Shown: positions 6,794-20,824 of the stretch, one piece after another
How the letters are laid out: every line of letters begins with the position of its first letter
Position numbering within the stretch: position 1 is the first letter of the stretch
Virus record (IMG/VR): IMGVR_UViG_3300009705_000107
Coordinates: 1-24,856 of that record
Strand: one strand, 5' to 3'
Length of the DNA stretch: 24,856 nucleotides
Source of the DNA: a virus
Translations under genes and position numbers: made by a program
The notes under the pieces: generated by a model
Databases searched by the model: none
What the model saw: the letters and a program-made list of their open reading frames with translations, nothing else
What the model was told of the DNA's origin: nothing

Positions 6794-7251
6794 TAAACTG
6801 GTACAACGAAGTTAGCAGAAATTTATCTAAGATACCAGACTGTGTTGCATTTTTTGATAACGAATTATTAGAAGCAAGAAAACAGTGTAAGATATACGGT
6901 AACTTAGAAAGAGCTAGTGCATCATTACCTGGAATAGTTGAAGAAAGATTTAGTCAATTACAACAACTCGAAGCAATTCTTGAATACCTAAACATAGAAT
7001 TAAGAAGATTAAGATCTAAAACTTTTAGAAAATTCTTAGAAAATTATAATAAACTGTTAAGCAGTAGAGATGCAGAGAAGTATGTAGACGGCGAAACTGA
7101 TGTTGTTGACATGACTAAGATAGTTAATGACTTTGCATTAATACGTAACCAATGGTTAGGCATCACCAAAGGATTAGATCAAAAACAATGGCAAATAACA
7201 AACATTGTTAAATTGAGAGTAGCAGGAATGGAAGATGCCGATATCAAATAA
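6790..7251 (+). CDS. uvsY: UvsY, recombination mediator
   Basis: UvsY loads UvsX onto gp32-covered single-stranded DNA. The 153-residue protein (T4: 137) has the family pattern: WYNEVSRNLSKIPDC near the N-terminus, the LEARKQCKIYGNLERASASLPGIVEERF block, and a Lys/Arg-rich coiled part (ELRRLRSKTFRKFLENYN) that matches the DNA-binding and hexamer-forming region. It ends with QWQITNIVKLRVAGMEDADI. Its place after uvsX and its 4-bp overlap with the preceding small gene support the call. It overlaps the following HAD-like gene by 17 bp. Confidence 0.9.
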   Translation: MINWYNEVSRNLSKIPDCVAFFDNELLEARKQCKIYGNLERASASLPGIVEERFSQLQQLEAILEYLNIELRRLRSKTFRKFLENYNKLLSSRDAEKYVDGETDVVDMTKIVNDFALIRNQWLGITKGLDQKQWQITNIVKLRVAGMEDADIK

Positions 7252-7858
7252 TAGAATAATACTTACAGACGTAGACGGAGTACTCCTAGAATGGGAAAAC
7301 CATTTTACTAAATGGATGTTACAAAGCACACTGTTTGATGAAAGAGGTGCTAGATATCACCCTTATAGACTACTACCAGACAAACAAAACACATATTGGA
7401 TGGAAGAAAGATTTGGTTTATCCAAAGAAAAAATGGGTGAAAAAATTAGAGAGTTTAATAGAAGTGCATGGATGGGCACACAACGACCTATGTTGGAATC
7501 ACAAACTTGGGTAAAATTATTACACGCCGAAGGATGGACCTTTATACCTATTACATCACAAACATCAGACAAGCCAGCACAAGAATTACGTAAGAAGAGA
7601 ATGGGAGAATTATTTGGCAACTATGTGTTTACCAATTACCACATACTAGGTACCGGAGCAGACAAAGACTCGGCATTAGCAGAGTTTCACGGTACTGGAC
7701 TGTATTGGGTCGAGGACAAACCTAAGAACGTACTAGCAGGGCTCTCTTACGGTTTAAAGCCTATATTAATCGACCATCCATACAATAGAGATTTTAATCA
7801 CCCCGATGTTATCCGTGTAAATAATTGGAAACAAATACATGAGTTATTAGTAAAATGA
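7235..7858 (+). CDS. HAD-like phosphatase/nucleotidase-type protein
   Basis: The N-terminus ILTDVDGVLLEW gives a HAD motif I (DxDG, D12 and D14, usually the nucleophile and general acid). FIPITSQTSD (about 104-113) fits motif II (hydrophobic strand ending in Ser/Thr). GLYWVEDKPKNVLAGLSYG fits motif IV with acidic residues holding Mg2+, followed by PILIDHPYNR. The 207 residues are usual for small HAD phosphatases. The substrate is unknown: 5'-nucleotides, a DNA 3'-phosphate, or a sugar phosphate made by the following gene block are all possible. It starts inside uvsY (17-bp overlap, GGAAtGGA-like sequence before the ATG) and overlaps the next gene by 4 bp, so it bridges recombination and glycan modules. 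Confidence 0.75.
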   Translation: MPISNNRIILTDVDGVLLEWENHFTKWMLQSTLFDERGARYHPYRLLPDKQNTYWMEERFGLSKEKMGEKIREFNRSAWMGTQRPMLESQTWVKLLHAEGWTFIPITSQTSDKPAQELRKKRMGELFGNYVFTNYHILGTGADKDSALAEFHGTGLYWVEDKPKNVLAGLSYGLKPILIDHPYNRDFNHPDVIRVNNWKQIHELLVK

Positions 7859-8532
7859 AAGTATACGTAGGTTGGGATTCTCGAGAAGACATATCATATC
7901 AAGTGTGTGAACACTCTATCAAACGTAGAGATCCATCTGCAGAAGTTATACCATTAAAACAAAATCAGATGCGAGAGCAAGGTATGTATACTAGAGAAAT
8001 AGACAAGTTAGCCACAACAGAATTTACATTTTCTAGATTCTTTGTGCCTTATCTTAATGACTACAAAGGTTGGGCTGTATTTTGTGATTGTGATTTCCTT
8101 TGGAAAATTCCAGCAAAAGAACTTGAACAATACTGTGATGATTCTAAAGCAGTTGTTTGTGTGCAACACGATTACACTCCTGAAGAAGGATCTATTAAGA
8201 TGGATGGACAAGTACAAACAGCATATCCAAGAAAAAATTGGAGCAGTATGGTACTGTGGAATTGCGGACATCCTAAGAATAAAATATTAACTCCCGAACT
8301 ACTAAACAAAGAAACACCAAAATTCCTACATAGATTTAGTTGGCTAGATGATGCAGACATTGGATCTCTACCTCACGAATACAATTGGCTAGTAGGTTGG
8401 TACAAAGAACCCAAAGATGGCAAACCTAAGATACTACACTACACAGAAGGTGGTCCGTGGTTCGATGGTTATAGAGATTGCGAGTATTCCGATGATTGGA
8501 AGAAAGAAGTAATCAATCTTTTCAGTGCATAA
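7855..8532 (+). CDS. GT-A glycosyltransferase (GT8-like)
   Basis: A probable sugar transferase using a nucleotide-sugar donor. The N-terminus VYVGWDSREDISYQV is the first beta strand with donor-binding residues, as in GT8-like enzymes. FCDCDFLWK supplies the metal-binding DxD motif (D78-C-D80). The C-terminal ILHYTEGGPWFDGY resembles the GT8 HxxGxxKPW metal/phosphate motif. The 225 residues are short, so mainly the catalytic domain is present. No signal peptide or membrane segment is visible, so it acts in the cytoplasm. It overlaps the HAD gene by 4 bp and is the first gene of the sugar block. The acceptor is unknown. Confidence 0.8.
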   Translation: MKVYVGWDSREDISYQVCEHSIKRRDPSAEVIPLKQNQMREQGMYTREIDKLATTEFTFSRFFVPYLNDYKGWAVFCDCDFLWKIPAKELEQYCDDSKAVVCVQHDYTPEEGSIKMDGQVQTAYPRKNWSSMVLWNCGHPKNKILTPELLNKETPKFLHRFSWLDDADIGSLPHEYNWLVGWYKEPKDGKPKILHYTEGGPWFDGYRDCEYSDDWKKEVINLFSA

Positions 8533-8563
8533 TCCACTATATTAAATCAAGATAAGTACAGTT

Positions 8564-8824
8564 ATGAAACACATGAACAGAATGCTTCAGTGGATCGATG
8601 AACTGGGATTAATCGTAGTCCAGTCTGAAATCAAACCATTTGGACCTGGTACACGGAGATACATGGTTGGCAGACATGTCGAAGAACCTAAGCACAATGC
8701 ATGGCAAATGCCAAGTGGTAAATGGGCTTCGACTCATGGTGTACAAGAATGGCTCACACCAGAACCACTAGATGGCCCAGCTTTAGAAAAATGGTTAACC
8801 GACTATGTGAAAGAAAATGTATAG
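8564..8824 (+). CDS. Small hypothetical protein
   Basis: I do not recognise this 86-residue protein. It is rich in Trp (five) and has MPSGKWASTHGVQEWLTPEP in the middle, which suggests a small globular domain; there is no membrane segment or known motif. It follows the GT8-like gene after 31 bp with a weak purine stretch (AAGATAAG) before the ATG, and overlaps the radical SAM gene by 8 bp, so it is probably cotranslated with it. A role as a partner or substrate of that enzyme is possible but unproven. Confidence 0.65.
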   Translation: MKHMNRMLQWIDELGLIVVQSEIKPFGPGTRRYMVGRHVEEPKHNAWQMPSGKWASTHGVQEWLTPEPLDGPALEKWLTDYVKENV

Positions 8825-9818
8825 AGAGATACCATTGCCCTCGTCAATAGCATTTGAACCTATCAACTTATGCAACGCAAAATGTTATTGTTGTCCATAC
8901 ACCACATTAAGTGAAGACAAAACATATCACGGTCAACTAATGACCAAAGAACAATTAGGTATGCTGTTACACGACTACGGTTCACTTATAAAAAAATACA
9001 AAGTAAAAGATTATGCGTGTGCTATTAGTCCATGGAGATACAGTGATCCACTAGTGCAACCTAATCTAGAGTACATCATGGAACTGTGTAATCACTATAA
9101 AATTAATGTTGGTATTACTACTAACGGTGTATCATTTACTAAAAAACAGTGTGAAATTTTAAACAAATACAAACACCTAATAGGTAATGTTCATATGAGT
9201 GTTATCGGACATACCGCAGAAGAACTATGGGAGTTTATGAATATCAAAAAAGACAAGACACTGAAAAGTCTAAACTTTGTAAAAGAAAACTATCCAAAAC
9301 TTTCAGAAAGGATTAAAATCGGTGTTAAACACAAAAATCAATCGGCCACTGCTAGTGCCAAAGTTATTAAAGAATATCAGGACGTTACACTTGGAAAAGT
9401 GAAATCCAAACAGAACTGGGTTGAAAATAGAATGGGCGACGGGGATGGTGATTGGACTAAACCATACAATTCTGTAATTGATGAAGAAAATTATATGCAA
9501 GGGTGTGCAATGGGCTCCGGACGTATACTAAGGAGAATGGAAGTGTTAGTGAGCGGACAAGCAGTTTTGTGTTGTGATGATGCAGAAGGAAAGACAGACT
9601 ATGGAAACATTTTTGAAATCGGAATTGAGGGAGCATGGAAAAACATGCAAAAAGAACACGAAATAATATACGCTGAAAAATACTCAGAAGAAAAAAAGAA
9701 TTTGATCTGCAACACTTGTTCTAGGGCTAAGTTCAACGGCAACTGGACAAGAGGCATGGAATCAAAATTACAGGCAGAACAACAAAATACAATTAGTAAA
9801 ATAGGAAGTATGCAATGA
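8817..9818 (+). CDS. Radical SAM enzyme with SPASM-like C-terminus
   Basis: The N-terminus has FEPINLCNAKCYCCPY, i.e. CxxxCxxC (C19, C23, C26), which binds the [4Fe-4S] cluster that cleaves S-adenosylmethionine. GITTNGV (about 99-105) is the usual strand after the radical SAM GGEP region. The C-terminus has C230, C252/C253 and CNTC (C298, C301), the spacing expected for a SPASM/twitch domain with auxiliary Fe-S clusters. Such proteins modify peptides or act on sugars and aminoglycoside-like substrates; here the glycan neighbours favour a sugar or a carrier. The ATG overlaps the upstream gene by 8 bp and the stop overlaps the next ATG (ATGA). Reaction and substrate cannot be told from sequence. 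Confidence 0.85.
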   Translation: MYREIPLPSSIAFEPINLCNAKCYCCPYTTLSEDKTYHGQLMTKEQLGMLLHDYGSLIKKYKVKDYACAISPWRYSDPLVQPNLEYIMELCNHYKINVGITTNGVSFTKKQCEILNKYKHLIGNVHMSVIGHTAEELWEFMNIKKDKTLKSLNFVKENYPKLSERIKIGVKHKNQSATASAKVIKEYQDVTLGKVKSKQNWVENRMGDGDGDWTKPYNSVIDEENYMQGCAMGSGRILRRMEVLVSGQAVLCCDDAEGKTDYGNIFEIGIEGAWKNMQKEHEIIYAEKYSEEKKNLICNTCSRAKFNGNWTRGMESKLQAEQQNTISKIGSMQ

Positions 9819-10417
9819 TAGGAAAGCATTTTGTAAGTAAATGTATTGACAGCACCACAATCAATGATCCATGGTCGCATCAAATTATAGAAGACACATT
9901 GCCACAAGAAGAATTCGTTAAACTTAAAGATCAGTGTCTCAACATAAAGGTGCCCAAAGACAGACTTGTTCATATATTTCCAAAAGATTTTACTGATCAT
10001 AACATTAAGTTCTATGATCAAATACATGATATAGCTAAAATAATTTTAGATAATGCAAAAGTTTTGTGTGACCAATATCCCAATTATAGATGGTTCGAAG
10101 ACCTATCTGTCAATGCCCACATTTCTGTGACTCCACCGTTGCCTTATAAGTTCTACATACACCAAGAAGGGCTTGAAAAAATATGGAGCAGTGTAACCTA
10201 CATAACTCCAGAAGTGAATGTGGGAACAAAAATGTACACGGAGCAGAATGAAAAAGCGTTTGTTAAAGAAGCAGAATGGAAGCCTAACAGTACTTTTATA
10301 TTTTGCGGACAACAAGGCAAGACTTGGCACAGTTACGAAAGTGATCAAGTGGAGCAAAGAATAACATTAAATTTATTTCTTATGAAAGATAATAAAAATT
10401 GTTTTTATAGAGGTTAA
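9815..10417 (+). CDS. 2OG-Fe(II) oxygenase-like (cupin-type) protein
   Basis: The second half has the order expected of a double-stranded beta-helix dioxygenase: HQEGLEK (H116, E118 in place of HxD), SSVTYITPE, GTKMY, EAEWKPNSTFIFCGQQGKTWHSY (H172) and QRITLNLFLM (R182 as the 2-oxoglutarate-binding Arg). Thus an HxE...H iron triad plus Arg can be proposed. At 200 residues it matches phage prolyl-hydroxylase-like proteins. It overlaps the radical SAM gene by 4 bp, so the two are coupled and may act on the same substrate. Its stop shares a TTAA with the stop of the convergent minus-strand gene. Family assignment is from pattern, not alignment. Confidence 0.6.
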   Translation: MIGKHFVSKCIDSTTINDPWSHQIIEDTLPQEEFVKLKDQCLNIKVPKDRLVHIFPKDFTDHNIKFYDQIHDIAKIILDNAKVLCDQYPNYRWFEDLSVNAHISVTPPLPYKFYIHQEGLEKIWSSVTYITPEVNVGTKMYTEQNEKAFVKEAEWKPNSTFIFCGQQGKTWHSYESDQVEQRITLNLFLMKDNKNCFYRG

Positions 10418-11016
10418 AAGTAGATCTTGTCCACTTGATCTAATCCGTCGTGCGTGGCTATGATGTCGCTGTTATTGAATCCCAATGTGCTCATGTAACT
10501 GTCCATTATTTCTTCATGGGGCATGTCTGGAAAATTTTCATCCTTGTGTAGGTTCACTTCCTGTATCACATACTTTGCTCTCTTAAAAATCTCTGGAGCA
10601 CCTTTCATTATCATAATCTCTGCACCTTGAACGTCTTGTTTTACCAAATCAAACTGTGCGTCACTGCCCACTAACTCATCTAGTGTCTGCATCTGTCTCA
10701 ACTCATAATTTTCATACACACCAAACACACTGGAACCTTTTGTGTACGTTATTTTCTTTTTGTTGCCTTTTGAAATTTCAGCCAGATGCATTTTAATTTC
10801 TCTATTCGAATCTCCTAACACTGCGATATGATAGTTGGACGTAATTTCTTTCAACTTCTTCTCATGCTTTTGTCCTGCTTCTATGCATGTGTATTCTGCC
10901 TCTGCCCAGATTTTTTTAACATTGTTAGTCCAAAAACCATTCCAAGCACCTATGTCTAAGATCTTTGCTGGCATGAACTCGTGTTTGACTTTTAGTTTTT
11001 CTAAGTATTCGTACAT
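10414..11016 (-). CDS. FkbM-family methyltransferase (1)
   Basis: A SAM-dependent O-methyltransferase. Motif I is ILDIGAWNGFW (19-29), followed by the acidic end of strand 2 (YTCIEAG). The FkbM signature is FDLVKQDVQGAEIMIMKGAP (about 120-139), then YVIQEVNLHKDE. The family methylates sugar or polyketide hydroxyls and is common in O-antigen and exopolysaccharide clusters. It is the last gene of a four-gene minus-strand operon; its ATG overlaps the upstream gene's TAA by one base (TAATG). It converges tail to tail with the oxygenase-like gene, with no room for a terminator. 200 residues is short but all core motifs are present. Confidence 0.85.
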   Translation of the reverse strand: MYEYLEKLKVKHEFMPAKILDIGAWNGFWTNNVKKIWAEAEYTCIEAGQKHEKKLKEITSNYHIAVLGDSNREIKMHLAEISKGNKKKITYTKGSSVFGVYENYELRQMQTLDELVGSDAQFDLVKQDVQGAEIMIMKGAPEIFKRAKYVIQEVNLHKDENFPDMPHEEIMDSYMSTLGFNNSDIIATHDGLDQVDKIYF

Positions 11017-11657
11017 TATGCTTTGTAATAGACAAGGTCAGGCCAGGTTTTCATTAATACCTTGAACCCGAGGGATTTCAGATGTTCCTTGATATCCTTT
11101 TTACTGCTACCGTATTTCTCACTATTACCATTCAATTCGATCATTAAGTATTCAACATTTTCTAAAATTTTTCCTGCACCTTTAAGAACTTCCATTTCGA
11201 GGCCCTCGACATCTATCTTAATCATGTCAATGCCTGTTGTGTCTAAGGAATCTAATTTATTGATCTTTGTTTCTCCCTTTTCCATTAGGACTCTAGTATT
11301 CTGTGTGGCAGACTCCTCAGTTAGTTTAACAAATCCATCTTCATTACCAACTGCTTGATTGTACAATCTAACATGATTATATCGTGCTACATTTCTTGTA
11401 AGGCATTCATAATGTATTTTGTTTGGTTCATAACAATGTATATTTTTTGCATATTTTTGCATGGCCAATGTCCATGTTCCGCACCATGCTCCCACATCTA
11501 CTATTAGATTAAATTTTTTATGTTGATTTTCGCACCATTGAAGAAACTCATTGAGTCCAGTTTCCTGCATGAATGGCTTTCCTTTTTCACGCCATTGTTC
11601 TATCTGAGCATCTGCGGACGGAACCCATAGCCCCTCGCTTAATTTTTCTATTTTCAC
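11016..11657 (-). CDS. FkbM-family methyltransferase (2)
   Basis: A second, more canonical FkbM enzyme. Motif I is LIVDVGAWCGTW (51-62), then CYEPN (75-79; Glu binds the SAM ribose), and the signature IDMIKIDVEGLEMEVLKGA followed by VEYLMIELNG. It begins with GTG, in a GTGA overlap with the stop of the upstream gene. It shares the overall fold and the GAWxGxW motif with its neighbour but is clearly diverged, so the two probably methylate different positions. Cytoplasmic; no signal peptide. A sugar or lipid-linked glycan as substrate is inferred from the family and the neighbours. Confidence 0.88.
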   Translation of the reverse strand: MKIEKLSEGLWVPSADAQIEQWREKGKPFMQETGLNEFLQWCENQHKKFNLIVDVGAWCGTWTLAMQKYAKNIHCYEPNKIHYECLTRNVARYNHVRLYNQAVGNEDGFVKLTEESATQNTRVLMEKGETKINKLDSLDTTGIDMIKIDVEGLEMEVLKGAGKILENVEYLMIELNGNSEKYGSSKKDIKEHLKSLGFKVLMKTWPDLVYYKA

Positions 11658-12466
11658 AATAATCCTTTGTCCATTAATATCTCTACTGCTTTACCGTTGG
11701 CAATTTCTTCTGGTGAAAACTGTTGATAAGCCAAACTGTATACCCAATCTTCACAACCAACAAAGAAAGGATTTTCAATGTCTGCAAGTTCTTGTCCACC
11801 AACTTCTTTAGCAAAACTTTTTTCATCACATATAACAGGTATGCCCATACACTGTGCTTCAACGGCGGCTATCGAACAACTTGTTACACATACCCAAGCG
11901 TCTTTGAGATCCTCAGATAAGGGAACTGTTGCTTCACTTGGTCCTGATGTACCTCTACCTCGGGGCTTTTGTCGAATTTTTATTGGTCTATCTGTGTACC
12001 TTTTAATTTGTGCTACGATGTCATTTGTCCAATTAGGTTTGTCTAAGTAGTTGTGTATACCAGCTGAGCTAGGACATACCAATATGTAACTACCTTTAAA
12101 GTTAGGTGCTTTAATTTTAATTCCAAATTTATCAAATCTATCTGACTTGCACATCTTAATATATGATGCATGAATTTTATTTCTACAAATACGCCAATAA
12201 TGATTGTCTGGTTTTAAATTATTATTATCAAATCTTCCAAAGTACGGAGTATCTGTAAACCAAAACTGGTGCTTACGTGCTTCAAGTTTTTTAACCATAG
12301 CTCTATTATTGCCAACGAATCCCCAAAACATACTGTTTGCTACTGGTTCTATTTCAGTTTGATTGTCTAACAATTTTGTTTGTTCGGGCCAAGACTTTTG
12401 CACACCATCGAAGACTTCGTATGCTTTGCTATTTTTATTATTAAATGGTGCGTAAATTGTTAACAT
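11654..12466 (-). CDS. GT-B-like glycosyltransferase family protein, paralog A
   Basis: One of four related proteins in this window (others start at 14285, 15090 and 18714). Shared blocks are a sugar-nucleotide-type strand (TDRPIKIRQKPRG), then AWVCVTSCSIAAVEAQCMGIPVICDE, LADIENPF, and the C-terminal WVYSLAYQQFSPEEIANG. The CSxAAxEAxxxGIPV block is typical of the donor-binding domain of GT-B enzymes and of capsule/Kdo-type transferases. The family name cannot be fixed without a profile search. ATG at 12466 overlaps the SGNH gene by 26 bp; its end overlaps the next gene by 4 bp. No DxD is expected for GT-B. Substrate unknown. Confidence 0.7.
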   Translation of the reverse strand: MLTIYAPFNNKNSKAYEVFDGVQKSWPEQTKLLDNQTEIEPVANSMFWGFVGNNRAMVKKLEARKHQFWFTDTPYFGRFDNNNLKPDNHYWRICRNKIHASYIKMCKSDRFDKFGIKIKAPNFKGSYILVCPSSAGIHNYLDKPNWTNDIVAQIKRYTDRPIKIRQKPRGRGTSGPSEATVPLSEDLKDAWVCVTSCSIAAVEAQCMGIPVICDEKSFAKEVGGQELADIENPFFVGCEDWVYSLAYQQFSPEEIANGKAVEILMDKGLL

Positions 12467-13106
12467 CTATAAACTCTTTTAATTGTTTTGCCCACTGTTC
12501 GTGGCCTTCGGCTGACGGATGTGGATCGTTAGGACTTACTATTAAATTTTTATCAGAGGCAAATTCAAGTTGACTCACTTTTGGATTAAAGAATCTATCC
12601 ATGTTGATTGCATTTCTAATTATAGTAAAGTCTTCGGTGCCATTACCAAAGTCGTTAGGCAGAGAGTTATACATCACATAAGGTATTTGCTTACGTTCAA
12701 AATAATTTTGCAAATCAAAAACATTATTAAGAAACTTCATAGTAAGATTGCTTTCTATATCCCAGCCTTGTTGTTTTCGTATAAAACTTACATTGTCTAA
12801 TGTCTTCCAAGTCCGCCAAGTAAGATCGGTACCGGGTATACGGCCTTTCTTCCACCCATCGTCTGTTATGTAGTCGTTCCTTACTGCACTGGACCACCCT
12901 ATCACAGCAAAAACATCTTCATTATTATTTTGCTCACACCAAACCTTAGTTGAAAAACTTATTCTAGTATTACCACGACCACCCATTGCAAGGTTAAACA
13001 ATTCTAGATTGTAACCTTCCGCTAAGATTTTTGTGGTAAATGTTTCTACCCCGTCTTTGTTTCTCGGTGTTAAGAAACTACACCCATTTGATAATAATTT
13101 GCTCAT
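12441..13106 (-). CDS. SGNH/GDSL-like hydrolase
   Basis: Probable esterase or acetyltransferase-partner of the SGNH fold, 221 residues from the preferred ATG at 13106. A longer reading is possible from 13154, but it adds a hydrophobic 16-residue start that overlaps the divergent promoter. Block I is LLSNGCSFL (Ser10 as nucleophile in GxSF instead of GDSL), then LFNLAMGGRGNTRISFS (block II Gly), DVFAVIGWSSAVRN (block III-like), and NDPHPSAEGHEQWAK (block V Asp-x-x-His). SGNH enzymes add to or remove acyl groups from sugars in O-antigen clusters. It is the first gene of the minus-strand operon. No signal peptide from this start, so it acts in the cytoplasm unless exported by lysis. Confidence 0.75.
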   Translation of the reverse strand: MSKLLSNGCSFLTPRNKDGVETFTTKILAEGYNLELFNLAMGGRGNTRISFSTKVWCEQNNNEDVFAVIGWSSAVRNDYITDDGWKKGRIPGTDLTWRTWKTLDNVSFIRKQQGWDIESNLTMKFLNNVFDLQNYFERKQIPYVMYNSLPNDFGNGTEDFTIIRNAINMDRFFNPKVSQLEFASDKNLIVSPNDPHPSAEGHEQWAKQLKEFIDVNNLRTI

Positions 13107-13138
13107 GCTGTTGTTTAGTAGTATAATTATAGTATACT
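13099..13138. promoter_or_regulatory. Divergent promoter region around an AT palindrome
   Basis: The 50 bp between the SGNH gene (-) and the GT61 gene (+) contain the palindrome TATAATTATA (13122-13131), which gives a perfect TATAAT -10 on both strands. On the plus strand TTGCTC (13099-13104) lies 17 bp upstream, and TATACT (13133-13138) with TTGTTT (13111-13116) is an alternative. On the minus strand TTGCAT lies 17 bp upstream of TATAAT. The -35 boxes are weak. Confidence 0.5.
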
Positions 13139-13156
13139 TACTGACAAAATGCAAAC

Positions 13157-14239
13157 ATGAAAAACATAGATTCGATCAAATACTTTTTAGACAAATGGGA
13201 AATGGTAGATAATGGTTATGATTATGCCGTGCCATACCATGAAGATATTGATCCAAACTTTACAAGTTTACCAACGTTCGTCGCAGAATTTCATAATGTT
13301 AAGGTAAACACTTGCCCAGTACTTGTTACTATGGCTAACAAACTTATAACCAATTATGTTTGGGGACTCACACATGCCAGCAAACATAAGCCTCAAAAAT
13401 CACACAAACTTTGGAATGACTGGAGTGATGATGTGGATGTTGTATTACCACCTACTACCGAATACTTTGACAAGAAATATCATTACGTATGGTTACCAAT
13501 TGATGAAGCAAGTGCAGAAAATCCATGGCATATTTGGATTGACGTTATATCTAAATTTAGACTTTTAGAAAAGAGATGGTCCACAGATTTTACAAGATAC
13601 TGCTACGTGTTAGCAAACGAAAGCAAGTATCTTAAAAAATGTATCAAAGAATTATTTCCCGAGGTCAAAGTTATAGTGATGCCAAAAGGCGAAACATGGC
13701 AGTTTAGACATTTACTAGTGCCCAGTCTAAGCAATTCTAGAGATGGCGTTATTACTCCTCACTTGGCTCCATGGCTAAAACATTTCAAAGGACGTCCTGG
13801 ACTCAAAGGTACAACAGCACACAGGAAAATAGTTGTGTTACGTCCAGGTGCTAAAACAAGAAAACTAACAAACTCCGATGAACTACTATTAGCACTTAAA
13901 GGGTACGAAGCAGTTGCCCTCGAAAATATGAGTATAAGAGAACAGATGAAAACGTTTGCAGAAGCAACACACATTGTTGCGGCTCACGGTGCAGGATTAG
14001 TAAACTTACTGTGGTGTAAACGTGGAACTAAAGTTATCGAAATACAAGAGCCTAAAATGATTCATAAAAAAGTTTATCCAATACTTTCACATCACCTAGG
14101 GTTGAAGCACGAACTTTATATAGCCGAAGCAGTACCGATACCAATGGATGGTAAGAAAAAGCCTGCAGGCATAAAAAGAAAAAGCGATTTAATTAATTTC
14201 AAAGTGAACGTTGCAGAATTAGTTAGACATTTAGATTAA
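13157..14239 (+). CDS. GT61/DUF563-family glycosyltransferase
   Basis: The C-terminal half has the family signature: IVVLRPGAKTRKLTN, the middle EAVALENMSIREQMKTFAEATHIVAAHGAGLVNLLWCKRGTKVIEI (split across residues ~255-300), where AAHGAGL..LLW is the diagnostic stretch. GT61 enzymes transfer pentoses or hexosamines to glycans; bacterial members sit in capsule and LPS loci. The N-terminal half (TCPVLVTM, HYVWLPIDEAS, PWHIWID) fits the variable acceptor domain. 360 residues is the usual size. Start ATG at 13157 follows the divergent promoter; no good SD. Intracellular. Acceptor unknown. Confidence 0.85.
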   Translation: MKNIDSIKYFLDKWEMVDNGYDYAVPYHEDIDPNFTSLPTFVAEFHNVKVNTCPVLVTMANKLITNYVWGLTHASKHKPQKSHKLWNDWSDDVDVVLPPTTEYFDKKYHYVWLPIDEASAENPWHIWIDVISKFRLLEKRWSTDFTRYCYVLANESKYLKKCIKELFPEVKVIVMPKGETWQFRHLLVPSLSNSRDGVITPHLAPWLKHFKGRPGLKGTTAHRKIVVLRPGAKTRKLTNSDELLLALKGYEAVALENMSIREQMKTFAEATHIVAAHGAGLVNLLWCKRGTKVIEIQEPKMIHKKVYPILSHHLGLKHELYIAEAVPIPMDGKKKPAGIKRKSDLINFKVNVAELVRHLD

Positions 14240-14271
14240 ATTGGTAATTTACATCTGGTAACAAGACAACC

Positions 14272-14278
14272 TTAAATA
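14272..14278 (+). promoter_or_regulatory. Late-promoter-like box TTAAATA before paralog B
   Basis: TTAAATA ends 6 bp before the ATG at 14285, the same geometry as at 566, 2255 and 17820. No convincing SD (only GAGT) is present between. Confidence 0.35.
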
Positions 14279-14284
14279 TGAGTA

Positions 14285-15100
14285 ATGATTTACGTTAGTT
14301 CTACTAATAGACAACCCACAGAGAAATATGTCGACTGGGCAGTGCAAGGACTACCTAATGCAAAAAAATTATTACCTAATGACATTATTAATAAAAAAGA
14401 TTGTACTAAAGCTGTGATGTTTGGAGTGCTACGTGGAACACATCTAGTATACAAATGGGCAGAAAAAAACAAGATTGATTTTTATTATATGGACAGACCG
14501 TATTGGGGTGAAACAAGAAACAATCCTTACTACACTAAAATTGTAAAGAACAATCATTTAAAGACCTGGCAAGAAGACAGACCCGATGACCGTTTTAAAA
14601 AATCATTTCCGTGGCCTATTAACCCATGGAAGAAAAACGGAAAGAACATTATTGTATGCCCGCCATCTAATGCTATAAAAGAATTTTTTGGAGTACACGA
14701 CTGGCTAGACAAAACACTAGAGACGCTTAAAGCTAATACCGATCGTCCAATAATAGTAAAGAATAAAGGATACAATCCAATTATAGGATACAATGACGAC
14801 GGAGGAATGATAGTGACAGGCAAAGATAATACTGCACCTAGTGGACCGATAGATTGGAATGATGCTTATGCTATTGTTACCTACAATTCAAATATCACAT
14901 TAGAAGCTACTACTAGAGGTATTCCGTGTTTTACTAATGTGCATAATGCCTGTGCACCTATATCAGAAACAGATTTCTCAAAGATAGAAAACCCTTGCTA
15001 CATTGACAGAGAACCGTTATACTATTCAATGGCATACGGTCAATTCACAGCAGAAGAAATAAGCAACGGTTATGCATGGAGAATACTAGATGAAAGTTGA
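14285..15100 (+). CDS. GT-B-like glycosyltransferase family protein, paralog B
   Basis: Same family and size (271 aa) as the minus-strand protein at 11654-12466: IYVSSTNRQPTEKYVDW at the start corresponds to that protein's first strand. Then IIVCPPSNAIKEF, TDRPIIVKNKG, AIVTYNSNITLEATTRGIPCFT, FSKIENPCYIDREPLYYSMAYGQFTAEEISNG. The SNxTLEATTRGIP block is the GT-B donor-site-like signature. It overlaps the next paralog by 11 bp. The pair of tandem paralogs (B, C) plus A and D suggests duplication within the phage cluster or repeated acquisition of the same family. Donor and acceptor unknown; the fold assignment rests on pattern. Confidence 0.7.
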   Translation: MIYVSSTNRQPTEKYVDWAVQGLPNAKKLLPNDIINKKDCTKAVMFGVLRGTHLVYKWAEKNKIDFYYMDRPYWGETRNNPYYTKIVKNNHLKTWQEDRPDDRFKKSFPWPINPWKKNGKNIIVCPPSNAIKEFFGVHDWLDKTLETLKANTDRPIIVKNKGYNPIIGYNDDGGMIVTGKDNTAPSGPIDWNDAYAIVTYNSNITLEATTRGIPCFTNVHNACAPISETDFSKIENPCYIDREPLYYSMAYGQFTAEEISNGYAWRILDES

Positions 15101-16070
15101 AATATTTAGAAGAACAGTAAAAGATAGACGTAGAGGAGCAAGTTATGATCTCTTGCAATACATGGCTGAAGGTATACGAGCTTGTGGTGACGAACCCATA
15201 ATGATTAATGAAACAAAGACTGGGGATTGGACTAAAGATGAAATGGAGCCAACTGCACCAATCGGTTGCATGTTTGGATATGGTGGCAGTAATCAAATGC
15301 ATCACACCAAGGGACGTAGACGAGACCTAGTAGAACGTGCAAAGAAAAAAGGAATTAAAATAATAACATTTGACGGAGGATTACTTTCAAGTTTTGGCAA
15401 TGTACACGGTGATAAACACCACTGGCGAGTTTCATTATTTTCACCCATGAACAACGGCGACTTCTTGTCAGATAACAGTCCTCCTGATAGATGGGAGGCC
15501 GCAAAAACCAGATGGAATGTTAAAAGCGAACCATGGAGAAAATCCGATCAAGAGGATCCAATTCTGTTTGTGCTACAACCTAAAGACAATTGGAGTATGA
15601 ACAATCTCGATCCTATTGAATGGTTCAACGGAGTTTATGAAAAATTGAGACCTATGACAGATAGAAAATTTATTGTACGACCTCATCCAAATCATGTTGC
15701 TCATATAGAAGAACGAATAAAAGAGTTTCCAGACGATGTAGAAGTTATTGTAGGACAAAAGTTCTTTCAAGGAGATGAAAAAAAGTATTATAGATTCCAT
15801 TTCCAAGAAGCAATATCTAATTGTCATGCTGTTGTTACACATAATTCCACTGCCGGTGTTGACTCTTGTGTTCGCGGGATACCTACGTTTAATACCTCAG
15901 ACCTTGCAATTAGTTGGCCAGTAGCTAACAAAGATTTAAACAACATAGAAACTCCGGAATATCCCGACAGGACTCAATGGCTTAACGATCTCGGATATAA
16001 ACTGTGGAGTGAAAAAGAAATTAGAAATGGTACGGTGTTCAAAAGATTTAAAGAAAAGTTAGGAATGTAA
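15090..16070 (+). CDS. GT-B-like glycosyltransferase family protein, paralog C
   Basis: 326 residues, the longest of the four paralogs because of an extended N-terminal region (EIFRRTVKDRRRGASYDL, GCMFGYGGSNQMHHTKGRRRDLVERA). The shared half carries MTDRKFIVRPHPNHVAH, AVVTHNSTAGVDSCVRGIPTFN, LNNIETPEYPDRTQWLNDLGYKLWSEKEIRNG. RPHP and THNSTAGVDS strongly resemble capsule-type/Kdo-type transferases. The TAA stop and the ATG of the asparagine synthetase share one base (TAATG), so they are coupled. Start at 15090 lies inside paralog B (11-bp overlap). Confidence 0.72.
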   Translation: MKVEIFRRTVKDRRRGASYDLLQYMAEGIRACGDEPIMINETKTGDWTKDEMEPTAPIGCMFGYGGSNQMHHTKGRRRDLVERAKKKGIKIITFDGGLLSSFGNVHGDKHHWRVSLFSPMNNGDFLSDNSPPDRWEAAKTRWNVKSEPWRKSDQEDPILFVLQPKDNWSMNNLDPIEWFNGVYEKLRPMTDRKFIVRPHPNHVAHIEERIKEFPDDVEVIVGQKFFQGDEKKYYRFHFQEAISNCHAVVTHNSTAGVDSCVRGIPTFNTSDLAISWPVANKDLNNIETPEYPDRTQWLNDLGYKLWSEKEIRNGTVFKRFKEKLGM

Positions 16071-17818
16071 TGTGTGGTATATACGGTATAACCGAACACA
16101 ATCCAAAATTTATAAAAGAATTTATAGATATATGTAAGCACAGAGGACCTGACGGGTCGAGTGTTTGGCACAACGAAAATATAACTCTAGGGCACAACTT
16201 GTTAAGCATAATGGGTGAGCCAGGTGATGCTACACAGCCGTGGACAACACCTCAAGGAAACAAACTTGTTTATAATGGAGAAATATTTAATTACTACGAA
16301 TTAAAAGAAAAATATAAAGACTTTACAGACACAACCGGCTGTGATACTGAACTACTTGCTTGGGGACTAGATAAATTTGGCTTATTGTTTGTTGATGAAA
16401 TAGATTCTATGCACGGCTTTGCGTATTACGAAGTTGATAAAAACACACTTACATTAAGCAGAGATCATGCAGGTATAAAACCTGTGTACTATGCAGAAAT
16501 CAAAGAAGGATTGGTTTTTGGTTCTGAGATAAAAGGCATGTTAGATAAAGTTCCTAACAGCAGAACAATGGACAATCTTGCAGTAAGTTTCATGGCAAGG
16601 ACTGGAATCAATGCGTTACGCAATACATTCTTTACAGGAATTAAAAAATTACTAGCAGGAGAGACCATAGTATACAATATGGTCGATAAAAAAATCACAC
16701 AAACACACAGAGTTTATATTAAACCTACAAGTAACAAACAATTTAATGCAGAAGAGTTTAGAACAAACGTAAAAAAAACAGTTGAGATGTGTTCAATAGG
16801 TAGAAGAAAAATTGGTGTATTCCTAAGTGGCGGACTTGATTCAAGCATGGTTGCGTATGAGTTAAAACAATTAAAAGGTGAAGCAAATACATTTACAAAC
16901 AGAATGGAACCTAATGTACAAGCAGATGAAGATTATAATAGTGACGCTAACTGTGCCAAGATAATTGCACAACAAAATAATTTTAATCATAAAGAAGTTA
17001 TAGCAACTCCTGAAACATTTATAGAATGTTGGGACAACAGCATATATTATATGGAACAACCTGTATACAATCCTAGTATGTCGATGTATTGTTCTACTAA
17101 TAAGTTTTTATCAGAGAACGAAATTGTAGTTACAATGGCTGGGGATATGGGTGACGAGATACTTGCTGGATATCCAAAGTACTGGAAAATGAAAAATCCA
17201 CAGTGGCTACAAAAACAAATAGGTAAAACAAAAATAGAGACATGGGACGATGTTCTAGCACTATGGCTAAAGAGAATAAAACGTCCATTGCAATTAACCG
17301 ATAATCCTATAAGTGATGATATACTAATAACAGAATTTCGTAAATGCTATTCAGGAGAATTGTGGAATTCTAATGACCCTATAGGATCATATATGGCGTT
17401 AGACTGTGTTGCTCAGGTACCAGAAGAAATGTTTAATAGAAACGACAAGTACGGCATGGCCTACAGTATGGAAGGACGTTTCCCATTAGCAACAAAAATG
17501 TTTATGCAATATTGTATGAGTATGCACACCGATTCGAAATTAGGTCCTGATAAAAACGATACTAAAACTTTTATTAAGAAGGCATACCTAGGCAAATTAC
17601 CAAACGAAATTATTAATAAAGTAAAAACTGGATGGACTGTTCCTGTTGGGCATTGGCTGACTACTAGTACAAGTTCTAAATTGAATAAATTTTACAAAGA
17701 AAGAACAGGCGAAAATTCTAAACTAGATGTAACGAAAGCTAGTCAGCAAGCCGGCAAGGCACTTATACCTGCATGGATTGTTAGTGATTGGATTAAAAAA
17801 TACAACATGACCAGGTAG
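16070..17818 (+). CDS. asnB: Asparagine synthetase (glutamine-hydrolysing)-like amidotransferase
   Basis: Class II glutamine amidotransferase joined to an ATP-pyrophosphatase domain. Glutaminase half: MCGIYGI with catalytic Cys2, KHRGPDGSS (24-31), VYNGEIFNYYEL, CDTELLAWGL. Synthetase half: PP-loop SGGLDSS (253-259), VTMAGDMGDEILAGYPKYW, and YSMEGRFPLATKMF. Length 582 fits AsnB (E. coli 554). In place of the glutamine-binding Arg of the AsnB block HERLSI, this protein has HNLLSI (Leu44). It may make asparagine, but homologues in O-antigen loci (WbpS-type) amidate uronic-acid sugars, and the neighbours here favour that. Coupled to the preceding paralog by a one-base overlap. Confidence 0.9.
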   Translation: MCGIYGITEHNPKFIKEFIDICKHRGPDGSSVWHNENITLGHNLLSIMGEPGDATQPWTTPQGNKLVYNGEIFNYYELKEKYKDFTDTTGCDTELLAWGLDKFGLLFVDEIDSMHGFAYYEVDKNTLTLSRDHAGIKPVYYAEIKEGLVFGSEIKGMLDKVPNSRTMDNLAVSFMARTGINALRNTFFTGIKKLLAGETIVYNMVDKKITQTHRVYIKPTSNKQFNAEEFRTNVKKTVEMCSIGRRKIGVFLSGGLDSSMVAYELKQLKGEANTFTNRMEPNVQADEDYNSDANCAKIIAQQNNFNHKEVIATPETFIECWDNSIYYMEQPVYNPSMSMYCSTNKFLSENEIVVTMAGDMGDEILAGYPKYWKMKNPQWLQKQIGKTKIETWDDVLALWLKRIKRPLQLTDNPISDDILITEFRKCYSGELWNSNDPIGSYMALDCVAQVPEEMFNRNDKYGMAYSMEGRFPLATKMFMQYCMSMHTDSKLGPDKNDTKTFIKKAYLGKLPNEIINKVKTGWTVPVGHWLTTSTSSKLNKFYKERTGENSKLDVTKASQQAGKALIPAWIVSDWIKKYNMTR

Positions 17819-17819
17819 A

Positions 17820-17826
17820 TTAAATA
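17820..17826 (+). promoter_or_regulatory. Late-promoter-like box TTAAATA
   Basis: TTAAATA ends 8 bp before the ATG at 17835. The start has no SD, only A/T. Same arrangement as the other boxes. Confidence 0.35.
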
Positions 17827-17834
17827 TCAATATT

Positions 17835-18707
17835 ATGAAAATCAAAGTTATCACATCATACAAGCCTGGCTGTTGGGAACAATACGGTAAGAAAGGTATC
17901 GAGTCTATGGCTGAGCAATTTCCAAAAGAAGTTGACATAGTAGTATATGCAGAAGAGCCTAAACCTGAATGCAAATATGATAGGATACAATGGATAGACC
18001 TTAACACTGCCGAGCCAGAATTATTCAAATTTAAAAACAAACACAAAAACGATCCTGTTGCAAACGGAGAGTTAGAAGAAATAGAAGGCGGAGTAAGACG
18101 TCCAGCAGAACTACAAGCAATGGGCGGAAACGACAAAAACAAAGGATCATTTCTTTGGGCCGCTGTGAGATTTTCAAACAAAGTATTTTGTGTTGTAAAT
18201 GCTGTACGTAATTCAAAAGAATATGATTATGTTGTGTGGATCGACGGAGATACATTTTCATTTAGACCTACACCGATAGACTTTTTTAAAAATTTATTAC
18301 CACAGGAAACAATGTTAACATACTTAGGTCGTGAGAATCCAAAACTAAACGACGGTGGCAAATATCCAGAGTGTGGATTCGTTGGGTATAACATGAAACA
18401 TCCAGAGATACAAAACTTTGTAAATGATTGGGAAAATCTTTATGTTACAGACGAAGTATTTAAATTATTAGAATGGCATGACTCGTATGTGTTTTGGCAC
18501 TTGTCAAAAATATATAGAAAAGAAAAAAACATACAAGTAAACGATATAGGTTACTGGAAAGGTGTAAAAGGACACCATGTGTTTGTTAACAGTGAGTTAG
18601 GACAGTATATGGATCACATGAAAGGCAATCGTAAAAAAATCGGTGCGTCATCACGTAATGATTTACGTTCTGAACCTACTGTTGATTACTGGAAACAATT
18701 AAAATAA
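17835..18707 (+). CDS. GT-A-type glycosyltransferase
   Basis: The N-terminus KIKVITSYKPGCWEQYG begins a Rossmann-like fold, and YVVWIDGDTFSFRP contains the metal-binding DxD motif (D137-G-D139) after a hydrophobic strand. ECGFVGYNM, HDSYVFWHL and GYWKGVKGHHVFVNSELG follow. This is the layout of a small nucleotide-diphospho-sugar transferase. The segment between (PKPECKYDRIQ to LQAMGGNDKNK) is an insertion of about 60 residues. It is preceded by a TTAAATA box and followed after 6 bp by paralog D. It differs from the GT8-like protein at 7855, so the cluster has two unrelated-looking GT-A enzymes. Acceptor unknown. Confidence 0.72.
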   Translation: MKIKVITSYKPGCWEQYGKKGIESMAEQFPKEVDIVVYAEEPKPECKYDRIQWIDLNTAEPELFKFKNKHKNDPVANGELEEIEGGVRRPAELQAMGGNDKNKGSFLWAAVRFSNKVFCVVNAVRNSKEYDYVVWIDGDTFSFRPTPIDFFKNLLPQETMLTYLGRENPKLNDGGKYPECGFVGYNMKHPEIQNFVNDWENLYVTDEVFKLLEWHDSYVFWHLSKIYRKEKNIQVNDIGYWKGVKGHHVFVNSELGQYMDHMKGNRKKIGASSRNDLRSEPTVDYWKQLK

Positions 18708-18713
18708 TATTTT

Positions 18714-19586
18714 ATGAAGATAGAAGTTTGGACAGAATATGGACCACAAAATTCAAAACCCATATTCGACGCATTTATAAAGAGTTTACAAGATGCAGGA
18801 GACACAGTAGTTCTCAATAGGTCGTGTAATGCAGACGTGGCAGTAATATGGAGTGTGCTGTGGCGTGGACGAATGGAAAACTATAAAAGGATATGGGATG
18901 AATTTAGATCCACCGGAAGACCTGTTATTGTGTTAGAAGTCGGTGGTCTTAGAAGAAATGAAAGTTTTAAGATAGGAATTAATGGTATCAACAGACAGGC
19001 AGACTTTGCCAATCAAGAGTTTGATGATAAGCGTTGGTCATTATTCAAACACACACTCAAGCCGTGGAACCCGACAGGTGACATAATTGTTATATGCGGA
19101 CAACACGATGCATCAGAACAATGGAAAGGACTTCCAAAGATGTCAACTTGGATTGAGCAACAAATAAGTGAAATTAGAAAATATACTGCTCGACCAATAC
19201 TTGTTAGACCACACCCTCGTAATACTATCCAATTTAAAGAAAGTGATTTTCAAAATGTTAAAGTTCGTTTACCTAAGAGAGATTTTAGAACTTATGATGA
19301 TACTGATTTTAAGAACACATTAGAAAGAACATGGGCTGTGGTTAATCACAGTTCTAATTCTGCCATGGAAGCAATTATTAGTGGTGTGCCAGTTTTTGTC
19401 TCTGAAGACAGTTTGTGCCATGATGTTGGCAATTTAAAACTGTGCGACATTAATACACCAGCGATGCCTAACAGATTAGGGTGGGCACACAAACTTGCAT
19501 ACACAGAATGGTTTAAAGACGAAATCGAACAAGGACTACCATGGACTAGAATTAAAGCAAGACTTGAGGAGAAATATTTAAAATGA
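18714..19586 (+). CDS. GT-B-like glycosyltransferase family protein, paralog D
   Basis: Fourth member of the family: GDIIVICGQHD, TARPILVRPHPRN, AVVNHSSNSAMEAIISGVPVFVSE, LCDINTPAMPNRLGWAHKLAYTEWFKDEIEQG. The order and spacing match paralogs A-C. RPHPRN and HSSNSAMEA suggest a GT-B donor domain. The N-terminal part (KIEVWTEYGPQNSKPIFDAFIKSL, DVAVIWSVLWRGRM, RPVIVLEVGGLRR) is better conserved-looking than in A/B. The start lies 7 bp after TTAAAATA, a one-A-longer version of the late-type box. It overlaps the next gene by 4 bp. Confidence 0.72.
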   Translation: MKIEVWTEYGPQNSKPIFDAFIKSLQDAGDTVVLNRSCNADVAVIWSVLWRGRMENYKRIWDEFRSTGRPVIVLEVGGLRRNESFKIGINGINRQADFANQEFDDKRWSLFKHTLKPWNPTGDIIVICGQHDASEQWKGLPKMSTWIEQQISEIRKYTARPILVRPHPRNTIQFKESDFQNVKVRLPKRDFRTYDDTDFKNTLERTWAVVNHSSNSAMEAIISGVPVFVSEDSLCHDVGNLKLCDINTPAMPNRLGWAHKLAYTEWFKDEIEQGLPWTRIKARLEEKYLK

Positions 19587-20338
19587 AAACTATAAAAATT
19601 GGCGGCAAGCCTGAAATACATCCTATTGAATGGACACCATATGCAGGTGAAACTATTGTCTTGAACACAATAATACGTAAGGGGGAACGTATACAAGAAA
19701 CAGGATTCTTCGAAGACAGAGTGAAAGCAGTCCCTAGAGGAAATGCGTACTGTATAGGCAACGGACCTTCACGTAAAGAGTTTGACCTAAACAAACTAAA
19801 AGCAACAGGACAAACTTATGGATGTAATGCATTGTATAGAGACTTTATGCCCGACTTTATTTTTTCAGTGGATACCAAAGTAACAGTAAAGATGTGTGAG
19901 GACAAAGTTTATGAAAACTGTTTTCACTATGCTCCTGCACTAGAAGTTAACAGGAAACAACACAAAGGCATGTTGCACCTTATACCTAACAATCCTCATT
20001 GGATTTCGGGTAACGCGGCCTTCTGGACTGCTGGTGTACACGGACACAAGAATATCTATTTGATAGGATTTGACTTTAGAGAATATGGCAAGGACCAATT
20101 GAATAATATATACCAAGACACAGAGAACTACGGTGAGAGACATAGCGATGCAATATTCGAAGGATGGTTGAAACAATTCAGAGATATGTTAAAAATGAGA
20201 CCTTATGTAACCTACACAGTAGTACATGACGATCCACCTGACTATATGAATCATTTTCAGACAGGTACTGACCTAGGCAACAGTAGAGTTATAACTTATG
20301 CGGAGTTTGAGAAAGAACTAGCATCTAGCCAGACGTAA
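19583..20338 (+). CDS. DUF115/Maf-like protein (motility-accessory/sialic-acid type)
   Basis: The motif AYCIGNGPSRKEF (55-67), GQTYGCNALY (76-85), FMPDFIFSVDTKV and the later GNAAFWTAGVHGHKNIYLIGFDFR resemble DUF115 proteins, including flagellin glycosylation factors (Maf, which transfer nonulosonic acids) and related pterin-kinase-fold enzymes. The IGNGPS stretch would bind a nucleotide. At 251 residues it is only the core domain. It ends by overlapping the convergent SprT-like gene by 21 bp, so this is the last gene of the plus-strand glycan block. The assignment is by pattern and moderately sure. Substrate unknown. Confidence 0.6.
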   Translation: MKTIKIGGKPEIHPIEWTPYAGETIVLNTIIRKGERIQETGFFEDRVKAVPRGNAYCIGNGPSRKEFDLNKLKATGQTYGCNALYRDFMPDFIFSVDTKVTVKMCEDKVYENCFHYAPALEVNRKQHKGMLHLIPNNPHWISGNAAFWTAGVHGHKNIYLIGFDFREYGKDQLNNIYQDTENYGERHSDAIFEGWLKQFRDMLKMRPYVTYTVVHDDPPDYMNHFQTGTDLGNSRVITYAEFEKELASSQT

Positions 20339-20794
20339 TCCGGCCGCATTAAATTTACTTTTCCAAGCAAAAAAGTTTGCATTGTGATTTGAGTAAGGAT
20401 CTTTCAACCAAGTCATTTGGTATAGATGCACCATTTCGTGTGCTAACGTTTCTATAAAGTCTTTCCACTTAGGAAATTTAAGATGTAGTTCTATATAATA
20501 ATCTACTTCTATATGATATGGTATAACTCTTTGATCAAATTTACCTTTAGGAGTTTTTCTATTATCCCAATTAGCAACACATCTGCCCCAATCTTTGTGT
20601 ATACTTTTTACATATAGTGGAACCATTGGCAATCTGTTGTTGAATAATGTTTTATTTAGATATCTAAACCAACTGTATGCTTGGGCTTCGGTGGGTCTAA
20701 AGCCAACAATGTTCTTGTGTCTAGTCAGAGTGTTTTCCAACTTGATCTTCAGTTGTTTTTTAACATTTACACTTTTACTTTTTATCTTTTTCAT
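20318..20794 (-). CDS. SprT-like zinc metalloprotease domain protein
   Basis: 158 residues from the ATG at 20794; a TTG at 20812 would add 6 residues (VKQST) but the ATG precedes the basic N-terminus (KKIKSKSVNVKK) normally enough. TLAHEMVHLYQ (H119, E120, H123) is the HExxH zinc site, and NHNANFFAW (H137) the third ligand, as in SprT/Spartan proteins, which degrade DNA-bound and cross-linked proteins. NRLPMVPLYVKSIHKDWGRCVANWD fits the family's N-terminal part. The basic start may bind DNA. It is antisense, convergent with the glycan block and divergent from the uvsW operon, which suggests its own promoter. Intracellular. Confidence 0.8.
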   Translation of the reverse strand: MKKIKSKSVNVKKQLKIKLENTLTRHKNIVGFRPTEAQAYSWFRYLNKTLFNNRLPMVPLYVKSIHKDWGRCVANWDNRKTPKGKFDQRVIPYHIEVDYYIELHLKFPKWKDFIETLAHEMVHLYQMTWLKDPYSNHNANFFAWKSKFNAAGLRLARC

Positions 20795-20796
20795 GG

Positions 20797-20824
20797 TTGA
20801 CTGCTTTACCAAATATGTTATAAT
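20797..20824 (+). promoter_or_regulatory. Sigma70-like promoter for the uvsW operon
   Basis: TTGACT (20797-20802) and TATAAT (20819-20824) with a 16-bp spacer: one mismatch in -35, perfect -10. It is the best sigma70-like promoter seen in the window. A start near 20831 leaves a ~15-nt leader before ATG 20846. Its -35 region overlaps the 5' end of the minus-strand SprT-like gene, so the two could interfere. Confidence 0.65.

Follow-up and report, generated by a model that had tools for sequence, protein, structure and literature searches.

A variable gene island between uvsY and uvsW of an uncultured marine T4-like phage is a candidate cassette for soluble oligosaccharide assembly

The stretch of DNA analysed here (the window), 24,856 nt or 24.9 kb long, is a viral contig of an uncultured marine phage (IMG/VR record IMGVR_UViG_3300009705_000107), in which 15 genes at 7855-20338 (12.5 kb) form an island between uvsY and a HAD-like gene on the left and a SprT-like gene, orf454 and uvsW on the right. 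We tentatively propose that this island is a phage-encoded, apparently all-soluble oligosaccharide-assembly cassette at a plastic site, whose acceptor would most likely be the host lipid A-core and whose effect would be to block rival phages. This proposal builds on the genes present, on the families and folds of their products, and on the empty sites, mosaic exchange and purifying selection that we observed; no export or polymerisation gene was detected. Fourteen of the 15 genes (the oxygenase-like gene weakly) carry signatures of glycan synthesis or modification, the exception being orf86. The initial annotation of this DNA had placed a glycan locus at these same positions, between the recombination genes and uvsW; the coordinates were right, and all the genes that it named are long, tightly packed open reading frames (ORFs; Table 1).

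The window carries a T4-like gene set (terL, ssb, uvsX, uvsY, uvsW and their neighbours). Among isolates, its UvsX is nearest to those of the giant phages Atu_ph07 and Phosso (68% identity) and its TerL to the PA5oct/Paride group (54%); the uvsX identities of 61-68% place the lineage on the Atu_ph07/Phosso/CBB side, and a megablast search of the window against phage isolates returned no matches. The island interval is 99% coding, most same-strand neighbours overlap or lie no more than 50 nt apart, and the genes fall into three blocks by strand (+, -, +). No Rfam families or tRNAs were found. Because sigma70-like and terminator-like sites were not above the shuffled expectation, transcription units were read from gene order only.

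Scans with UvsX and AsnB yielded 137 viral loci, and GT61 and gtB3 orthologues co-occurred in 58 of these, all of them uncultured viral contigs. The comparison of gene order in related phages, which had been suggested as a check of the locus, thus found the island conserved in nearly constant order, and since this synteny is kept in 58 contigs, chance can be excluded. These contigs are not all independent (three are almost identical to the window), some are truncated, and all the members of the lineage that were compared are metagenomic contigs. Where both flanks lay on one contig, the uvsY-uvsW gap measured 14.1-16.3 kb in nine contigs and one duplicate (L120/L134), 7.7-8.0 kb in two more distant contigs, and 1.2-1.3 kb, with a single gene of ~400 aa, in four relatives. 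Phosso, Vibrio phage 2.275.O and CBB, all isolates, have an almost empty site holding one to three genes, and in Atu_ph07 the interval is occupied by other small genes.

The left part of the island is the most exchanged, with radical SAM, oxygenase and FkbMb genes in some versions and an epimerase and GT2-like pair in others; further versions carry GDP-mannose dehydratase, epimerase, CTP transferase, sulfotransferase, LicD or methyltransferases. No transposase or homing-endonuclease model matched those alternative-island genes that were scanned with Pfam, which were not all of them. The most widespread island gene is gtA1, which is conserved as far as the phages Mosig and S-SCSM2R, Caulobacter and Stenotrophomonas phages and bacterial chromosomes, where its homologues have TPR proteins, sulfotransferases and FkbM proteins as neighbours and form no clear pathway. 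The gene content of the islands bears on the idea that the amidotransferase, radical SAM/SPASM protein, oxygenase and methyltransferases belong to a secondary-metabolite or glycopeptide pathway and not to a polymer-attached glycan. Both the radical SAM/SPASM and the oxygenase genes are present, the AsnB protein also matches lasso-cyclase and N-acetylglutaminylglutamine amidotransferase models, and a comparable proposal has been made for a second jumbo-cyanophage cluster (PMC7824862). However, orthologues of the radical SAM gene occur in only 17 of the 58 islands and of the oxygenase gene in 33 (some contigs being truncated), which makes them accessory to a stable core of transferases, and no precursor-peptide candidate was identified (orf86 was not examined as one). 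We consider such a pathway improbable.

Pairwise comparison of the window with a close relative (L086) showed synonymous divergence (dS) of 0.10-0.13 for the SGNH-like gene, gtB2 and gtB3, 0.28 for uvsW, 0.60-0.66 for gtA2, gtB1 and the DUF115-like gene, and 1.21 for orf454. As dS runs from 0.10 to 1.21 between neighbouring genes, this pair of sequences is a patchwork. Across contigs, identity ranged from 28 to 99% for the SGNH-like protein and from 42 to 100% for gtB2, compared with 81-100% for uvsW, and the median omega of the island genes was 0.04-0.2. These jumps in dS, together with the low omega, indicate that the island genes are functional, exchanged alleles in a recombining cassette and not filler. 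Functionless DNA that fills the head during headful packaging, an idea raised for cyanophage lipopolysaccharide (LPS) clusters (PMC3037559), would account for an expandable region of variable size, but the strong purifying selection and the quantified gene swapping at one site argue against it, as do the dense coding, the intact catalytic motifs and the order kept in 58 contigs, so that this explanation is close to refuted.

Judged by the curated Pfam and NCBIfam cut-offs, only the two FkbM methyltransferases, GT61, AsnB (Asn_synthase and GATase) and the DUF6071/SGNH-like protein scored above threshold, and the profiles bear out the families first assigned to them. The GT8-like, GT-A, four GT-B and DUF115-like genes had no Pfam match above cut-off (the DUF115-like gene matches MptE-like below it), and their assignments are supported by paralogy, fold (gtB4 and gtA2) and profiles. 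For gtA1 there were weak matches to GT8-type WbbM (E 0.011) and 5gvv (E 0.12); the AlphaFold2 model of gtA2 (predicted local distance difference test, pLDDT, 93) matched GT6 enzymes in Foldseek (E 3e-8, template-modelling score (TM) ~0.4); and the DUF115-like protein matched GT42 CstII sialyltransferases over only ~30 aligned residues, spanning its GNGPS motif. The radical SAM/SPASM call held, with scores slightly under the Pfam cut-offs and the CxxxCxxC motif present, whereas the oxygenase call proved weak: that protein has HxE and a later H, no Pfam match, and a low-scoring PHROG match labelled endonuclease V. The oxygenase and GT42 assignments are both thinly supported. In a PADLOC search, FkbMa was matched to mad2 and the DUF115-like protein to Cas2b; these were the only two matches, both weak and implausible, and were rejected.

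The four GT-B paralogues (gtB1 to gtB4) are related to one another at E 1e-7 to 5e-26 and form a family not represented in the profile libraries searched. A profile of this family found no match among PDB sequences, and its wider relationship emerged by fold alone. Structures were predicted for gtB4 and gtA2, and the assignment to a modified GT-B fold is that of gtB4, whose AlphaFold2 model (pLDDT 95, from a 45-row alignment) had as its best 25 PDB matches only the retaining beta-3-deoxy-D-manno-oct-2-ulosonic acid (Kdo) transferases KpsC, WbbB and KrkA (GT107, GT99 and GT140; E 2e-8 to 3e-5, TM 0.43-0.57). In these enzymes the nucleophile sits in QxxxD and CMP is bound by (K/R)xHP, although KrkA itself departs from the latter (PMC12887879, PMC9587256). 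Shared with them are the gtB4 fold, the (K/R)xHP motif, which is present in gtB3 and gtB4 and absent from gtB1 and gtB2, and an S...E nucleotide-site pattern. In a motif table of 300 phage GT-B homologues, Q and (K/R)xHP were both kept in 58/59 gtB3 and 52/55 gtB4 orthologues, and neither was found in those of gtB1 (0/65) or gtB2 (0/63); the full QxxxD occurred in 14 of the 300, none close to the window proteins. The model thus identifies the phage GT-Bs as probable relatives of beta-Kdo transferases by fold, in two predicted subtypes with the CMP site kept or lost; because the two motifs are lost or partial, we do not claim membership among the Kdo transferases. A bolder and rather doubtful extension is that, in this lytic relative of giant phages, the island works like a serotype locus, a site that is fixed but recombines and that provides lineage-specific glycans, built mainly by a phage-expanded KpsC-fold family in which loss of the covalent-nucleophile motif would imply a different mechanism or donor. 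Two alphaproteobacterial contigs (L172, L176) have a small chromosomal gene group, gtA1-gtB1-TPR protein-gtA2-gtB3, that is similar to the phage set and in which one gtB has QxxxD.

The locus had also been compared with the gene sets for O-antigens and capsules. It does bring seven or eight likely glycosyltransferases together with modifying enzymes, and the general claim of a glycan-building or glycan-modifying locus stands in that the multi-enzyme set is real and other versions include sugar-nucleotide enzymes, sulfotransferase and LicD. The proposed closeness to an O-antigen or capsule set was not supported. In a simple hydropathy count, none of the 1,058 island ORFs had more than a single hydrophobic segment, and therefore no flippase, polymerase or ABC exporter was seen. 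Across 16 phage contigs, to which one relative contributed 196 kb, the Bac_transf-type phosphoglycosyl transferase PF02397 was absent (the WecA-type family PF00953 was not searched), as was the CMP-sugar synthetase PF02348 (CTP_transf_3, the KdsB/NeuA family). Nucleotide-sugar synthesis genes, none of which is in the window, occur in some other islands. The island therefore appears to be without the assembly and export genes that normally make up half of such a cluster, and is more like a soluble lipooligosaccharide (LOS) outer-core locus, or one for protein glycosylation, than a complete O-antigen or capsule set. Since no polytopic membrane proteins and no PF02397 or PF02348 genes were seen, export, polymerisation and lipid initiation would be host-supplied or unneeded.

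In LOS outer-core loci such as those of Campylobacter and Haemophilus, soluble GT8- and GT42-type transferases act without a flippase or polymerase. The island is alike in both respects, but lies on a phage and has a putative acceptor. From this likeness and the gene content we infer glycan production, glycan chemistry, acceptor and benefit as follows. Nucleotide sugars would mostly be supplied by the host, and the GT-A, GT-B, GT61 and GT42-like transferases would lengthen a glycan in the cytoplasm, which the FkbM methyltransferases, the amidotransferase and the SGNH enzyme, with the optional radical SAM, oxygenase, sulfotransferase and LicD proteins, would trim to a lineage-specific form; judging by context, the amidotransferase might turn a uronic acid into a uronamide. 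The most probable acceptor would be the lipid A-core of the host, on the inner leaflet, on the model of LOS outer-core loci with soluble transferases only, and host export would then display an altered surface that blocks rival phages. Consistent with this are the KpsC-type fold, as in enzymes working at the inner membrane face, the GT8-, GT42- and GT61-type members, as in LPS and LOS loci, the number of transferases and modifiers with no membrane assembly genes seen, the filled and empty sites, and the turnover of alleles.

Several points weigh against this reading. The QxxxD nucleophile motif of KpsC, WbbB and KrkA is absent from all four window GT-Bs (0/4); the membrane-protein scan was the hydropathy count described above; and a virion protein could just as well be the target of soluble enzymes. 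The homologous cluster of Caulobacter jumbo phages adjoins a tail gene, and pelagimyophage glycan genes sit in a host-recognition cluster (PMC7029224), either of which would suit virion decoration. Glycosylation of a capsid, tail or fibre protein in the cytoplasm before assembly, giving variable phage coats, is thus a serious alternative, though one to which we give less than even weight. The apparently all-soluble set with no lipid carrier or export genes fits it, as do the mosaic diversification, the position of related genes immediately after a tail gene in Caulobacter phage CcrBL9 and, in the 196-kb relative, a second cluster of sugar and radical SAM genes past the baseplate and tail genes. 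Chloroviruses glycosylate their own capsid protein in the cytoplasm. Virion glycosylation is also on record for mycobacteriophages, whose capsid and tail-tube subunits have been reported to be glycosylated, as cited in PMC12619734. However, several of the enzyme families are typical of LPS, no acceptor protein was identified, and the island lies among recombination genes and not structural ones, without the T4-type late-promoter motif TATAAATA. The sole copy of TATAAATA in the window, at 2255-2262, closely precedes the gene that follows terL; the 196-kb relative has nine copies, and seven of its genes have one within 120 nt upstream. The enzyme families, this position without TATAAATA and the published proposals for similar clusters lead us to favour the host surface, and the host lipid A-core is placed slightly ahead of a virion protein by judgement, not by measurement.

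Phage glycosyltransferases can also serve DNA-base modification, which in T4 resists restriction, and the island adjoins DNA-metabolism genes. However, the thymidylate-synthase-type hydroxymethylase PF00303 was absent from the same 16 contigs, most of them fragments, the FkbM, AsnB, SGNH, GT61 and GT42-like genes beside the transferases are out of place in such a system, and gene number and turnover are too high. With no sign of it in the island lineage, a T4-type DNA-glucosylation route is very unlikely.

Clusters of glycan or LPS genes have been described in cyanophages (PMC3037559), pelagimyophages (PMC7029224) and jumbo phages (PMC7824862), with roles proposed and not shown; for the latter two (pelagimyophages and jumbo cyanophages) the proposal was superinfection, and moraphages also possess core glycosyltransferases (PMC12619734). 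Like the LPS clusters of the T4-like cyanophages P-SSM2, S-SSM7 and S-SM2 (PMC3037559), the island groups glycosyltransferase and sugar-modifying genes in a large marine T4-like phage and varies between relatives, but those clusters lie near hli03/phoH and tRNAs, whereas the island lies at uvsY-uvsW, in the Atu_ph07/Phosso/CBB-side lineage, and at neither an hli03/phoH nor a tail-fibre position. Pelagimyophages have glycosyltransferases in their host-recognition cluster, with GT8-type enzymes abundant (PMC7029224), and the isolate Mosig EXVC030M shares gtA1, gtB, gtA2 and FkbM homologues; the Mosig cluster is small, adjoins ribonucleotide reductase and RuvC genes, and has no asnB, GT61 or DUF115-like homologues in the stretch compared. 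In CcrBL9, CcrColossus and other Caulobacter jumbo phages, the cluster next to the tail gene combines gtA1 with two gtB homologues and a DUF115/sialyltransferase-like gene, the proteins being only ~23-35% identical to those of the window. Phage glycan and LPS clusters were already known; new here are the site and the phage lineage, the occurrence of empty and filled alleles, a KpsC-fold family that has lost motifs, and figures for the extent of the mosaic. Marine-phage LPS clusters thereby gain a conserved, testable instance, with one site, filled and empty alleles, core transferases, measured swapping and purifying selection, and the fold link of the phage GT-Bs gives biochemistry a concrete starting point and helps to decide between host-surface rewriting and self-coating by large phages.

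Table 1. Genes of the island and its borders, with the evidence for each assignment
Gene or product	Position	Strand	Evidence or remark
HAD/NT5C-like (phrog_420)	7235..7858	+	left boundary; 4-nt overlap with gtA1
gtA1, GT8-like GT-A glycosyltransferase (phrog_28018)	7855..8532	+	DxD at 78-80; weak GT8/WbbM profile matches
orf86, small ORF, often adjoins the radical SAM gene	8564..8824	+	gene order
Radical SAM/SPASM protein, accessory	8817..9818	+	PF04055 E 2e-6, PF13186 E 5e-4, both slightly below cut-off; CxxxCxxC at residue 19
Oxygenase-like, putative 2-oxoglutarate (2OG)-Fe(II) type, accessory	9815..10417	+	HxE...H; weak similarity to S-SCSM2R proteins annotated as 2OG-Fe(II) oxygenases, E 3e-10
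FkbMb methyltransferase, accessory	10414..11016	-	PF05050 E 2e-10, TIGR01444
FkbMa methyltransferase	11016..11657	-	PF05050 E 3e-12, TIGR01444 E 6e-24
gtB1, KpsC-related GT-B paralogue	11654..12466	-	paralogy; RxKP replaces (K/R)xHP
SGNH hydrolase-like (DUF6071)	12441..13106	-	PF19547 E 1e-6; GCS motif
GT61 glycosyltransferase	13157..14239	+	PF04577 E 1.4e-20, above cut-off
gtB2, KpsC-related GT-B paralogue	14285..15100	+	paralogy; degenerate motifs
gtB3, KpsC-related GT-B paralogue	15090..16070	+	paralogy; RPHP; QxxDN replaces QxxxD
AsnB-type glutamine-dependent amidotransferase	16070..17818	+	PF00733 E 8e-44; TIGR01536 above cut-off; catalytic Cys2 and SGGLDS loop intact
gtA2, GT-A, GT6-like fold (alpha-1,3-GalT/BoGT6a type)	17835..18707	+	DGD motif; AlphaFold2 model and Foldseek
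gtB4, KpsC-related GT-B paralogue	18714..19586	+	RPHP; S...E nucleotide-site residues; QHDAS replaces QxxxD
DUF115/MptE-like, GT42-related	19583..20338	+	GNGPS; CstII profile match E 9e-4; PF01973 sub-threshold
SprT-like protease, right boundary	20318..20812	-	PF10263 E 2e-7
orf454, right flank	20846..22210	+	~400-aa gene stands alone here in empty-site relatives

At the borders, the HAD/NT5C-like gene is the constant left edge of the island in close relatives and could act on sugar phosphates, and the SprT-like metalloprotease gene, with an HEMVH motif, lies on the opposite strand between the island and orf454 in ~40 contigs. The SGNH-like gene probably starts at the ATG at 13106 and not at the TTG at 13154, and sigma70-like sites lie by its start at 13155-13126 and 13147-13120. 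Contigs of the same phage lineage (L161-L164) were binned into metagenome-assembled genomes labelled Verrucomicrobia, Pelagibacter, Rickettsiales and unclassified bacterium (TMED46), which is likely mis-binning, or else a hint of the host. The second cluster of the 196-kb relative (L156:13041-20000 and L157:1-8320) encodes four radical SAM proteins together with DUF6071, a carbamoyltransferase, an NAD epimerase, a DegT aminotransferase and a GFO/IDH oxidoreductase. In cyanophage S-SCSM2R, the gtA1 homologue is near genes annotated as KdsB and KdsA (the CMP-Kdo pathway) and as 2OG-Fe(II) oxygenases. In two further contigs (L130, L131), an AsnB homologue with 49% identity sits in another phage setting, alongside radical SAM proteins, one ORF that by eye looks structural and one that by eye looks short-chain dehydrogenase-like.

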